A DNA stretch of 42,876 nucleotides from Mizugakiibacter sp. Its GTDB lineage: Bacteria; Pseudomonadota; Gammaproteobacteria; Xanthomonadales; Rhodanobacteraceae. The notes below the pieces were generated by a model. The model was not told the DNA's origin, did not search any database, and saw nothing but the letters and a program-made list of their open reading frames with translations. The position numbers and the translations under genes are program-made. Location of the stretch: the NCBI GenBank assembly GCA_003233305.1, contig QILI01000097.1:1-42876 (forward strand), given 5' to 3'. Of this stretch, positions 37,183 through 42,876 are shown in pieces (the stretch's first letter is position 1; every line of letters starts with the position of its first letter).

Positions 37183-38520
37183 ATGGCCGGCAAGCTCTAT
37201 ATCAAGACCCACGGTTGTCAGATGAACGAGTACGATTCCGCAAAAATGGCGGATGTACTGCGTGCCTCACACGGCCTGGAACTCACTCAGGACGAAGCGG
37301 AAGCTGATGTCATCCTGATCAACACCTGTTCGATCCGGGAAAAAGCCCAGGAAAAAATGTTCAGCCAGCTGGGCCGCTGGAAACAGTTCAAACGTGGTGG
37401 GCGCTCCGTGGTCATCGGTGTCGGCGGCTGCGTGGCCAGTCAGGAAGGTGAAGCCATCCTGAGCCGCGCCCCCTATGTAGACCTGGTTTTCGGTCCACAA
37501 ACCTTACACCGGCTCCCGGAAATGCTTGATGCACACCAGCGCAATCAACAGCCCCAGATAGATATCAGTTTTCCAGAAATTGAAAAATTCGACCGACTTC
37601 CCGAGCCGCGGGCCGACGGGCCGACAGCTTTTGTGTCAATTATGGAAGGCTGCTCGAAATACTGCTCCTACTGTGTCGTGCCCTATACCCGTGGCGTAGA
37701 GATCAGCCGGCCCTTTGATGACGTACTTGCCGAGGTCGCCATTCTTGCCGAACAGGGCGTGCGTGAGGTGAACCTGCTAGGTCAAAACGTGAACGCTTAT
37801 CTGGGTGCCCTGCATGGCGGTGGCGAAGCCGATCTAGCTCTATTGATCCGGGCTGTTGCCGAGATTGATACCATCGGCCGTATCCGCTTTACCACTTCGC
37901 ATCCGGTGGCATTTACCGACCGTCTCATCGAGACCTACCGGGATGTGCCCAAACTGGCCAATTACCTGCACCTTCCCGTGCAAGCCGGCTGCGACCGCAT
38001 CCTGGTGGCAATGAAACGGGGCTATACCGTCCTCGAATACAAGCAACGGATCCGGGCCTTGCGAGCAGTACGGCCGGACATCTCCATCAGCTCGGATTTC
38101 ATCGTCGGCTTTCCCGGTGAAACCGAAGCCGAGTACGAGCAGACTCTGCTATTGATCGAGGATCTGGACTTTGATCAAAGCTTCTCCTTCATCTACTCGC
38201 CCCGGCCCGGCACTCCCGCGGCCAATCTCGCCGACAACACCTCCCAGGCCGATAAGCACACCCGCCTGACTCGCTTACAAGACCGTATCAACGCGCATGC
38301 ACGTCGCATCAGCCAGGCCATGGTCGGCAGCGTGCAAAAAGTGCTGGTTGAAGGCCCCAGTAAAAAGGATCCCAACGAATTGTCCGGGCGCACGGAAAAC
38401 ATGCGCGTTGTCAATTTTCCCGGAGATCTACGCCTGACCGGTCAGTTTATTGACGTCACCATTAGTGCTGCGCTCAGCAATTCTCTGCGTGGCCGAATAA
38501 CTCCAGTAACCAAATCGTGA
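37183..38520 (+). CDS. miaB: tRNA-2-methylthio-N6-dimethylallyladenosine synthase MiaB
   Basis: 445-residue radical SAM methylthiotransferase that modifies A37 of tRNAs. The N-terminal UPF0004 domain supplies Cys12, Cys49 and Cys83 for the auxiliary cluster. The radical SAM cluster uses Cys157, Cys161 and Cys164 (GCSKYCSYC). The C-terminal TRAM domain covers about the last 70 residues. First gene of the miaB-phoH-ybeY run. The start matches the family ([19 protein letters not shown]). Confidence 0.97.
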
Positions 38521-39512
38521 GCGCTCCGCTGAGCCAGCGTGACTTTACCCTGCAACCCGAAGACCTCGAGCGCCTGGCCAATCTGTGTGGCCCCTTCGAC
38601 CAACATCTGCGACAGATCGAACTACGACTTGGCGTCGAGATTGCCGCACGTGGCAGCGTATTTCGGGTACTCGGAGAAGATCGCGCGGCTCGTGCCGCCG
38701 AACGGGTGCTGCGCGAACTGTATGCCAGCACCCGGCAACAATCCCTGGACGGACAAGCCGTACATCTGCATCTGGCCGAATCAGGGATCGATCAGCTGAC
38801 CGAAATCCCGACGGATTCGGCACAAGATGCCGCCATCCAGGTCAAGCGGGGCTTGATCCGCGCTCGCAACCCCGGTCAGCACCGCTATCTGCACGCCATA
38901 GCCCACCACGATATCAATTTTGGGGTTGGACCCGCTGGCACCGGAAAAACCTATCTGGCCGTGGCCAGCGCCGTGGCGGCCCTGTCTGCCAATCGCGTAC
39001 AGCGCCTGGTTCTGGTCCGCCCCGCAGTGGAAGCCGGAGAAAAACTCGGTTTTCTTCCGGGCGACCTCAGCCAGAAAGTCGACCCCTATCTGCGCCCCTT
39101 GTACGACGCGCTGTACGAAATGCTCGGCTTTGAAAAAGTCACCCGGCTGGTCGAACGCAACGTAATCGAAATCGCCCCGCTGGCTTATATGCGCGGCCGC
39201 ACCCTCAACGATTCGTTCGTGATTCTTGATGAAGCCCAGAACACCACCGTCGAACAGATGAAGATGTTTCTGACCCGTATCGGCTTCGGTTCAGTCGCGG
39301 TCATCACCGGTGATGTAACCCAGGTCGACCTGCCTCGCACCACCCGTTCCGGATTGCGCCATGTCATTGAGGTGTTACGTGATCTTGAGGAGCTGAGTTT
39401 TACCTTTTTTACCTCCCACGACGTGGTTCGACACCCGCTGGTAGCACGCATCGTACGTGCCTACGAAGCCGCCGAACAACGCGAGGAAAGCACCCAGTCG
39501 CACAGCCCATGA
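38517..39512 (+). CDS. phoH: PhoH-like ATPase (YbeZ)
   Basis: 331 residues. Walker A GPAGTGKT at 138-145, Walker B-like [11 protein letters not shown] and an arginine-rich region ([14 protein letters not shown]) typical of PhoH. A small N-terminal RNA-binding-like domain precedes the ATPase. The GTG start overlaps the miaB stop (GTGA), and its own stop overlaps ybeY (ATGA), so translation of the three genes is coupled. YbeZ works with YbeY in ribosome and rRNA metabolism. Confidence 0.94.
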
Positions 39513-39982
39513 CAGCAGTTACCTCTGATCCGCTGCATCTGCACCTCAGTTACGGCCTACCCCGACGAGGTCTGCCCGCAGCAGCAAGTTTTCATCGCTG
39601 GGTCAGCACCACATTGGCAGCCGTGGCATTCCACAACCCGGCAGAACTTTGCGTGCGCCTGGTTGATAGCGCGGAGGGCCGGGCCCTCAACGCACGATAT
39701 CGCAGCAAGGACTGCCCCACCAATGTCTTGTCCTTCCCTGCCGAACTGCCGATACCCATCCCGATCCCCCCACTGGGCGATCTGGTGCTTTGTGCCCCCC
39801 TCGTGGCTGATGAAGCGGCAGCCCAGGGAAAACCGCTAAAGCATCACTATGCCCACCTCACCATTCACGGGGTACTGCACCTGCTCGGTTACGATCATCT
39901 CCAAGCCGCACCTGCCGAGCGTATGGAAGCCCTGGAGCGACAGATACTCGTCACACTCGGCATCCCCGACCCCTATACCTGA
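39509..39982 (+). CDS. ybeY: Endoribonuclease YbeY (16S rRNA maturation)
   Basis: 157 residues. The metal-binding motif H-x3-H-x5-H is His120, His124 and His130 in HLTIHGVLHLLGYDH. RYRSKDCPTNVLSFP matches the conserved substrate loop. It starts inside the end of phoH. A 215-base gap then precedes corC; it contains no gene and may hold a promoter. Confidence 0.95.
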   Translation: MTAVTSDPLHLHLSYGLPRRGLPAAASFHRWVSTTLAAVAFHNPAELCVRLVDSAEGRALNARYRSKDCPTNVLSFPAELPIPIPIPPLGDLVLCAPLVADEAAAQGKPLKHHYAHLTIHGVLHLLGYDHLQAAPAERMEALERQILVTLGIPDPYT

Positions 39983-40197: not shown

Positions 40198-41043
40198 ATG
40201 AGCGAGGATCTGAGTACCACCGGCCCTGCGCGCCGCACTTTCTGGGAGCGTCTGGGTCATCTGCTGAGTGGTGAAGTTCGCAGCCGCAAGGAACTTCTAC
40301 ACGAACTGCGGGAAGCTGCCGCAAAGGAACTGATTACTCGCGACACGCTGGCCATGCTTGAAGGGGCGCTCGAAGTGAGCGATCTCCGAGTCAGCGACGC
40401 AATGATACCGCGTGCGCAAATGGCTACCCTGTGGGTCGATACCGACCTGCCAACCATTCTCGCTGCCGTAGTCGATTCGGGTCATTCCCGTTTTCCAGTA
40501 CATGGCGACGACAAAGACGAGATCCTCGGTATTCTGATGGCCAAAGATCTGTTGCATTTTTTCGGGGAAACCAAACCCACGGATATCCATACTCTGCTGC
40601 GACCGGCGGCCCTAATCCCCGAATCCATGCACCTGAATGTGCTGCTCAGCGAGTTCAAACTCACCCACAATCACATGGCCATCGTGGTCGATGAATATGG
40701 GGGTATTTCAGGGCTGATTACCATCGAGGACGTGCTTGAGGAGATTGTCGGCGAAATCGACGATGAGCACGACGAGGATGATGAAGTACCACGTATCCAG
40801 CCGCAGGCCGATGGCACCACCCTGGTCGATGCACTCACTGACATTGAGGATTTCAATAAATATTTCGGTAGCCGGCTCTCCGAGAATGAGTTCGACACCA
40901 TAGGTGGGCTGGTCACTGCCGAAATCGGTCACTTACCGGAACTCGACGAAACCGCCACCCTCGGCCGGCATGCCTTCCTGGTGACGGCGGCCGACGAGCG
41001 CCGGGTACTGCAATTTCGGGTTACCTCAACCCATGCGGACTAA
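40198..41043 (+). CDS. corC: CorC/YbeX family CBS-domain protein
   Basis: 281 residues. Two CBS domains (about 65-190: MIPRAQMATLWVD, SRFPVHGDDKDEILGILMAKDLL, MAIVVDEYGGISGLITIEDVLEEIVGEI) are followed by an acidic bridge (DDEHDEDDEVP) and the CorC/HlyC C-terminal domain (about 200-275). No membrane segments, as for YbeX. It was linked historically to Co/Mg efflux and more recently to ribosome assembly. The last 11 bases overlap the next gene. Confidence 0.94.
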   Translation: MSEDLSTTGPARRTFWERLGHLLSGEVRSRKELLHELREAAAKELITRDTLAMLEGALEVSDLRVSDAMIPRAQMATLWVDTDLPTILAAVVDSGHSRFPVHGDDKDEILGILMAKDLLHFFGETKPTDIHTLLRPAALIPESMHLNVLLSEFKLTHNHMAIVVDEYGGISGLITIEDVLEEIVGEIDDEHDEDDEVPRIQPQADGTTLVDALTDIEDFNKYFGSRLSENEFDTIGGLVTAEIGHLPELDETATLGRHAFLVTAADERRVLQFRVTSTHAD

Positions 41044-42274
41044 ATGGTACAGCGGGTTCCAGCCGTTACGGCTACTTCTGGTTCTACTCGCACTCATCGT
41101 TACCCTACCGGCCCATGCCGGGCTGGCCACGGCACCCGGCAGCCAGCTTGAGGTGTCACTGCTTACCTATGGCCCCGGCAAGGTGTACTGGGAGCGCTTC
41201 GGCCACGATGCCATCTTGCTCCGAGATCGGGTCAGTGGCCAAGCCGTAACCTTCAACTACGGAGTCTTTGACTTCTCACAGAAACATTTTCTACTTAATT
41301 TTATCCGCGGACACATGCGCTACAGCATGGATGCCAATCCCGCCGCCGCCGATATCGCCGGTTATGTCGAAGCCGGTCGCTGGATCGAACAGCAGCATCT
41401 GGCTCTAAGCCCAGCACAGCGGGTGAAATTACGTGATTTCCTGCTCTGGAACCTGCAACCCGCGCATCGCCACTATGCCTATGAATACTTCACCGACAAC
41501 TGCTCGACACGGGTCCGTGACGCACTCAACCTGGCCACCGATGGCGCCATAGCGGCACAGCTGTCGCAACATCCGAGCAGCTTGACCTTCCGCAGTCAGA
41601 CCGACCGCTTGCTGGCCCCCAATCCTGCCCTGATGCTGCTGGCGGATCTGGCCCTTGGCCCCTACGCCGATCAGCCGCTCAATACCTGGCAAGCGACCTT
41701 CATTCCGATGGACTTGATGAATTCACTGGAAAACGTGCAAGTCACCGATGCCTCAGGCCACAGCCATCCACTGCTCAGCAATCAGAGTCGCCTCTATACC
41801 GGGCGACTGCCACCGCCACCAACTCAAGCCCCACAACTGGCCTGGCCGCTGGGTCTGGTCGGCCTCGTCCTGGCCGGCCTGATTCTGCTCCTCAGCCGCT
41901 CATCCCGACCCATCCTGGAGCGCAGCGGGCACTGGCTGGCTGCGCTCTATGTTGTCCTCGCCGGCCTCGCTGGCACTCTGATGCTGTTGCTATGGACACT
42001 GACTGCCCACCAGGCCGCATGGGGCAACGAGAACCTGCTGCTATTCAATCCCCTACAGTGGCTACTACTACCGGCATTGCTGAAACGCCCTAACCGGCCT
42101 TCACGGTATCGGCCATTCGCCCGCTATCTGGCAATGTTACTGGCCACCGTTGCTATTCTTGCCCTGCTCGCGCGACTGTTCGAATGGCTGCCGCAACAGA
42201 ATCTACCCTGGGTCTTGTTGGCGCTACCCGTTACACTGAGCTTAGCCTGGATACTACGCAAACCGGCAAACTGA
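41033..42274 (+). CDS. DUF4105/Lnb-type membrane protein at the lnt position
   Basis: 413 residues. A signal-anchor or cleaved signal (about 11-29, ending PAHAG) leads to a periplasmic DUF4105 domain (about 35-240) with conserved YWERFGHDAILLRD (His58) and YEYFTDNCSTRVRDAL (Cys157). These are the His/Cys pair expected of a papain-like thiol enzyme. The C-terminal ~140 residues form four or five membrane helices (about 271-288, 302-322, 334-350, 364-381, 391-408). In Bacteroides a protein of this family and topology, Lnb, was reported to be a lipoprotein N-acyltransferase (recalled). Here the gene overlaps corC by 11 bases and occupies the slot of lnt in the enteric miaB-ybeZ-ybeY-ybeX-lnt order. 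The lipoprotein role is an inference. Confidence 0.8.
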   Translation: MRTKWYSGFQPLRLLLVLLALIVTLPAHAGLATAPGSQLEVSLLTYGPGKVYWERFGHDAILLRDRVSGQAVTFNYGVFDFSQKHFLLNFIRGHMRYSMDANPAAADIAGYVEAGRWIEQQHLALSPAQRVKLRDFLLWNLQPAHRHYAYEYFTDNCSTRVRDALNLATDGAIAAQLSQHPSSLTFRSQTDRLLAPNPALMLLADLALGPYADQPLNTWQATFIPMDLMNSLENVQVTDASGHSHPLLSNQSRLYTGRLPPPPTQAPQLAWPLGLVGLVLAGLILLLSRSSRPILERSGHWLAALYVVLAGLAGTLMLLLWTLTAHQAAWGNENLLLFNPLQWLLLPALLKRPNRPSRYRPFARYLAMLLATVAILALLARLFEWLPQQNLPWVLLALPVTLSLAWILRKPAN

Positions 42275-42483: not shown

Positions 42484-42735
42484 ATGAACGTGATAACCAA
42501 CTACATCACCATTGAGCAGAGCAGCAACAATCCCTATGCCAACCTTGGGCACCTCGATGCCCAAGGCACGTTGGTCAAAGCCGACTCGGCACGCCAGATC
42601 GGACGGATCATCAAGGCCCGGCGCCTGCCTCAACAGCGGGCGGTCAAATTATTGGGTATGACACAACCCAAAGCTCTCCGGATGCTACATGTCGGGTTTC
42701 GTGTGATTCTATCGAGCAACGGGTCTGGCGTTTAA
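42484..42735 (+). pseudogene. HigA-like antitoxin gene with a frameshifted 3' end
   Basis: 83 codons. The first ~65 (SSNNPYANLGHLDAQGTLVKAD, ARQIGRIIKARRLPQQRAVKLLGMTQPKALRML) match the XRE-type antitoxins paired with Gp49 toxins. After KALRMLH the family expects a GRFRGFSIERLxRFL-like stretch, but this frame ends VILSSNGSGV. The neighbouring frame (near 42695-42720) reads SIEQRVWRL, so a frameshift has probably occurred. The DNA-binding helix-turn-helix core survives, so a truncated repressor could still be made. Confidence 0.65.
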
Positions 42736-42787: not shown

Positions 42788-42876
42788 ATGTCCGTGAACC
42801 TGCACCCTCTAGCCCGTACGACGCCACGTACGCGAGCAGAGATCAAGAGCGAAGCTCCGAGCTTGAGTCACCAGGC
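42788..42876 (+). mobile_element. Start of a probable IS481-like transposase gene (cut by the window end)
   Basis: From the ATG at 42788 the frame reads MSVNLHPLARTTPRTRAEIK followed by SEAPSLSHQA and runs off the window. This resembles the N-terminus of IS481-family transposases (the NLHPxARTTPxxRAEI type that precedes the helix-turn-helix). The left inverted repeat cannot be fixed from what is visible; it should lie between the antitoxin stop and this start. Confidence 0.55.

Follow-up and report, generated by a model that had tools for sequence, protein, structure and literature searches.

Lnb is a lipoprotein N-acyltransferase whose activity has to date been proven in Bacteroides alone (Armbruster et al. 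2024, PNAS e2410909121, as cited in PMC12994826), so the enzyme class has been known since 2024. According to a review from the same year, the nitrilase-type enzyme Lnt is produced by almost all Gracilicutes (PMC11784454). A 2023 study found no Lnt gene in Xanthomonas campestris B100 and inferred that its lipoproteins are diacylated (PMC10368991). One sentence of a 2026 paper notes that Lnt has displaced DUF4105 proteins repeatedly, in three genomic contexts; corC and Xanthomonas are unnamed in its text (PMC12994826). The same paper assigns TseH, YiiX and the LRAT/H-REV107 group to the circularly permuted NlpC/P60 proteins and connects them with lipids. No paper linking Lnb with Xanthomonadales was found within the literature searched. 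The in-place replacement of Lnt by Lnb across a whole order seems to be new within that literature, as does the candidate answer that it offers for Xanthomonas, where no Lnt has been found.

The window analysed here, meaning the whole stretch of 42,876 nucleotides, comes from a genome of the Rhodanobacteraceae (order Xanthomonadales/Lysobacterales) with an assembly of 2.66 Mb in 172 contigs that is 99.2% complete. A miaB-phoH-ybeY-corC-Lnb cluster lies at the 3′ end of the window. Positions 40198-42274 consist of two genes, corC and, beginning within its last 11 nt, an Lnb-like gene. The features of the cluster are as follows.

37183..38520, + strand: miaB (domain match)
38517..39512, + strand: phoH-like gene, ybeZ (domain match)
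39509..39982, + strand: ybeY endoribonuclease (domain match)
40198..41043, + strand: corC, with a CBS pair and CorC_HlyC (domain match, synteny)
41033..42274, + strand: candidate Lnb-type lipoprotein N-acyltransferase, 413 aa (Pfam, NCBIfam, conservation, model)
41126..41563, + strand: Lnb_N periplasmic catalytic domain, residues 32-177, predicted permuted NlpC/P60 fold (Pfam, VIA-align)
41204..41206, + strand: codon of His58, the predicted catalytic base (invariant in 112/112 distinct relatives)
41501..41503, + strand: codon of Cys157, the predicted catalytic nucleophile, in the motif DNCSTRVRDAL (invariant in 112/112 distinct relatives)
41840..42259, + strand: five predicted TM helices, residues 270-409 (secondary structure of the model, 5TMH_Lnb, conservation)

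The Lnb-like gene is close to its neighbours in G+C content and is under purifying selection (dN 0.094 and dS 0.52 against L074, a relative with 87% identity). Downstream, an HTH_37 gene lies at 42484-42735. The short piece at 42788-42876, which is the contig end, has no match in Pfam and resembles the start of an IS481-type transposase; the assembly may have broken there because of this element.

The 413-residue protein is predicted to consist of an N-terminal signal/TM segment, a periplasmic Lnb_N domain and five C-terminal TM helices. Lnb_N (PF13387, formerly DUF4105) matches residues 32-177 with E 4.6e-21 and 75.6 bits against a gathering score of 22.2, and 5TMH_Lnb (PF25221) matches residues 283-404 with E 2.3e-11 and 44.4 bits against a gathering score of 25.2. 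The NCBIfam model of Lnb, NF051878, is matched over the full length (residues 16-398, E 4.8e-53, 180.4 bits). All 38 aligned orthologues and relatives from other families match this model too, while seven other DUF4105 proteins score at most 20.5 bits on it. The equivalog cut-off of NF051878 is 550 and is not reached by the window protein. Therefore, we will use the term “Lnb-type” and not the NCBIfam equivalog name; with a score so far under the cut-off, the protein is a divergent relative. Neither LNT_N nor CN_hydrolase with its Glu/Lys/Cys triad was found in the protein with Pfam.

Across 112 distinct orthologues there is no variation at G57, H58, Y97, R116, N156, C157, R162, P225, G314, N332 and P340; H326 and N334 are each kept in 111. 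Residues H326, N332, N334 and P340 are predicted to lie in and just after a periplasmic-side loop of the TM bundle. The AlphaFold2 model (pLDDT 86, pTM 0.74) contains a signal/TM helix, a periplasmic domain and hydrophobic C-terminal helices that fit five TM segments. Lys and Arg are abundant in the loops assigned to the cytoplasm but not in the periplasmic ones, a pattern that puts H326, N332 and N334 on the catalytic domain's side of the membrane. The preliminary description of this DNA had pointed to a DUF4105 gene overlapping corC, a family link to the Lnb of Bacteroides, a conserved His58/Cys157 pair and a bundle of C-terminal helices, and each of these features is borne out by the overlap, the three profile matches, the conservation and the model.

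A sequence search of the PDB with the window protein gave no credible homologue. With the model, Foldseek returned nothing from the PDB at E ≤ 0.001, its top two matches, CLN5 and TseH, being informative but weak; as a result, the assignment of the fold rests on VIA-align. By this method the periplasmic domain aligns with TseH (Z 11.8, rmsd 3.2, 151 aligned) and YiiX (Z 10.9, rmsd 3.7, 163 aligned), and less well with H-REV107/PLAAT3 (Z 6.1) and CLN5 (Z 5.8). PLAAT3 and CLN5 act as transacylases. The modelled domain has a papain-like core in which the His strand precedes the Cys helix, the arrangement that defines the permuted NlpC/P60 superfamily.

Three CN_hydrolase genes, and only three, are present in the window genome, and by size and motifs they are AguB-, YafV- and NadE-like. 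On the lnt model TIGR00546, which has a cut-off of 132.9 bits, nothing in this genome scores above 27.9. The scans with CN_hydrolase and TIGR00546 thus rule out a canonical Lnt hidden among the assembled contigs. LspA and LolA were found in this genome. Lgt was not found in the assembly, and a candidate match turned out to be a 286-aa fusion of an Lgt-like N-terminal half with a thioredoxin/TlpA-type domain (contig C21:5649-5981 of the window genome, G000; L201, L205). Since Lgt is present in 60/60 relatives searched, the window assembly must have gaps, and claims of absence drawn from it alone are weak. It could accordingly be argued that a canonical lnt also sits in such a gap, among 172 contigs that lack even the Lgt present in all relatives searched, and that the Lnb-type protein is an extra enzyme. 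This is scarcely credible, as the place where lnt usually lies is uninterrupted in the window and holds the Lnb-type gene, and closed genomes of the family lack lnt as well. The absence of Lnt therefore rests also on these ten single-contig Rhodanobacteraceae genomes (G016, G018, G029, G033, G035, G036, G042, G050, G055 and G056), in all of which Lnb is present and no lnt match exceeds about 41 bits.

Among relatives, Lnb and canonical lnt are mutually exclusive. Of 119 relatives, 109 are of good quality, and 106 of these carry Lnb. The three that do not (G076, G086 and G088) are exactly those with the strongest lnt matches, at 298-305 bits, all others scoring 204 or less (Fisher p 4.8e-6, a guide only, because the test ignores shared ancestry). 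In a wider sample of 377 Gammaproteobacteria, 352 pass the lnt cut-off and seven pass that of 5TMH_Lnb; canonical lnt is absent from all seven, although in one of them (G026) an 853-aa paralogue scores above the lnt cut-off. The corresponding p of 3e-9 likewise ignores shared ancestry and serves as a guide only. Lnb_N alone is not diagnostic, since DUF4105 proteins of other architecture occur beside Lnt. Also, Lnb_N was not found in several Lnt-lacking Gammaproteobacteria, many of them with small genomes, showing that Lnb does not in every case make up for a lost Lnt.

Divergent Lnt-like proteins are encoded elsewhere in 21 of 71 Rhodanobacteraceae genomes (~30%), 18 of them with a protein of ~480-540 aa and three with one of ~830-850 aa. 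The shorter kind (L154-L162, L166 and L167) has an ICKDMDF-type active-site motif and is scattered in Rhodanobacteraceae beside Lnb. The longer kind (L008-L014) has an extra C-terminal membrane domain and occurs in several families of the order. The paralogues examined retain the nitrilase E/K/C motifs, and with 138-201 bits some of them exceed the TIGR00546 cut-off, so that they could be regarded as the true N-acyltransferases of the order, with Lnb as an accessory. We consider this very unlikely and rejected them as the true Lnt: they are divergent paralogues that do not adjoin corC, and both kinds are absent from the window genome and from ~70% of Rhodanobacteraceae, closed genomes included, whereas Lnb is near universal. 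In those genomes that do have such a paralogue, Lnb may not be the sole N-acyltransferase. A second DUF4105 family (L015-L044), with N-terminal TM helices followed by Lnb_N and no 5TMH domain, was observed in Rhodanobacteraceae and Xanthomonadaceae, and a protein of the same type (L259) occurs in an Lnt-bearing genome.

The gene order miaB-phoH-ybeY-corC-lnt, which the preliminary description had given for many Gammaproteobacteria, is indeed the usual one there. Among the sampled Lnt-bearing gammaproteobacterial loci outside Xanthomonadales, corC directly precedes lnt in 15 of 18, most of them with the full cluster. At 72 of the 80 loci found with the window protein, Lnb comes after corC without another listed gene in between, and in ten further families of the order the main copy of Lnb is placed likewise. 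One of these ten, f2, has a LolA that is by far closest to the LolA of X. campestris (PDB code 8ORN; PMC10368991) and is for this reason taken as the Xanthomonas family. A second, divergent Lnb copy (L188) was seen away from corC in one genome, G105.

In another family, f7, corC (53% identical) is followed by canonical lnt and there is no Lnb. In the CorC tree f7 is, with moderate support, the basal branch of the order. The tree thereby suggests a history in which lnt was ancestral after corC and was exchanged in place for Lnb early, once f7 had diverged. In pairwise comparisons the identity of Lnb rises with that of CorC (r 0.82), as it should if the two genes were inherited vertically together. 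The genome G088 was down-weighted as evidence that lnt was retained within the order, its corC being only 28% identical and on a very long branch; its miaB-phoH-ybeY-corC-lnt cluster (L170) is far more divergent than the family assignment suggests, and the genome is possibly misplaced. Outside the order, G404 has a miaB-phoH-ybeY-corC-Lnb cluster and no lnt. Its Lnb falls beside that of Rhodanobacteraceae in the Lnb tree with weak support, a placement that makes a transfer of Lnb between orders possible.

Taken with the family match, the invariant His/Cys pair and the predicted fold, the adjacency to corC, the absence of Lnt here and in closed relatives and the exclusivity with canonical lnt argue that the window gene very probably encodes an Lnb-type apolipoprotein N-acyltransferase that took over both the place and the job of Lnt. 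The preliminary description had left a choice between replacement of Lnt and an additional enzyme. A search for a normal lnt elsewhere in the genome, which it had proposed, came back empty, and for the window genome synteny and exclusivity support replacement; an additional enzyme is possible in the ~30% of related genomes with an Lnt paralogue.

In the proposed mechanism, Lgt would add the diacylglycerol and LspA would free the amino group of the lipoprotein cysteine before the Lnb-type step. The membrane-embedded enzyme would then use Cys157, activated by His58, to accept an acyl chain from a phospholipid on the periplasmic side, and the thioester-bound acyl group would pass to the α-amino group of the cysteine to give a triacylated lipoprotein, ready for Lol export by way of LolA. 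The TM bundle, which carries H326, N332 and N334 in a periplasmic loop, may hold the lipid donor and the lipoprotein near the catalytic domain. We know of no biochemistry for any proteobacterial Lnb-type member.

A different function was also considered, in which the lipoproteins of the order stay diacylated and the Lnb-like protein is a phospholipase or an acyltransferase with another substrate. Diacyl anchors were modelled in the study of X. campestris LolA and LolB (PMC10368991), phospholipases and toxins are among the permuted NlpC/P60 proteins (PMC12994826), and DUF4105 proteins of other architecture coexist with Lnt. The coexisting proteins, however, lack the Lnb TM domain and score at most 20.5 bits on NF051878, whereas the window protein matches the Lnb architecture end to end, and the occupation of the lnt slot together with the exclusivity with lnt would be hard to explain otherwise. 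A diacyl order with an unrelated role for this protein is for these reasons improbable. We think it likely that Lnb is the sole lipoprotein N-acyltransferase in most Xanthomonadales, among them the Xanthomonas family and Rhodanobacteraceae, and that it displaced lnt in situ, as a non-orthologous gene, within the miaB-phoH-ybeY-corC cluster. The published diacyl inference for X. campestris would then be wrong, a reading drawn from other genomes of its family.

The corC-linked Lnb found throughout the order is a concrete, testable candidate for what completes lipoproteins there. If it does so, the last step of an essential envelope pathway has been exchanged in place for a chemically unrelated enzyme, and drugs targeted at Lnt would miss Xanthomonadales. 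Annotation that relies on models would then be missing the enzyme, because the cut-off of the Lnb model is 550 bits and the score here is 180.

Among known systems, the Lnb of Bacteroides is similar in having an Lnb_N periplasmic domain and 5TMH_Lnb, collinear over the full length, and a conserved His and Cys, which were equated with His58 and Cys157 through the superfamily logo described in PMC12994826 and not by direct alignment. It differs in belonging to another phylum, and the window protein, at 180 bits, is well under the equivalog cut-off; its gene occupies the corC-lnt slot of the miaB-phoH-ybeY cluster, and its N-acylation activity is a prediction. Other DUF4105/Lnb_N proteins (such as L015, L257, L258 and L262) share the Lnb_N domain but differ in size and architecture, coexist with Lnt or Lnb and stay within the 20.5-bit limit on NF051878. 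The permuted NlpC/P60 acyltransferases and lipases TseH, YiiX, LRAT/PLAAT, CLN5 and Tox-Act1 resemble the predicted periplasmic fold (Z 11.8 to 5.8), with His before Cys; to our knowledge they have no five-TM bundle and are not lipoprotein modifiers. Nitrilase-type Lnt has an unrelated fold, with CN_hydrolase and LNT_N domains that the window protein lacks and Glu/Lys/Cys in place of its Cys/His, and yet the two have in common the genomic slot directly after corC and the reaction predicted for the window protein.
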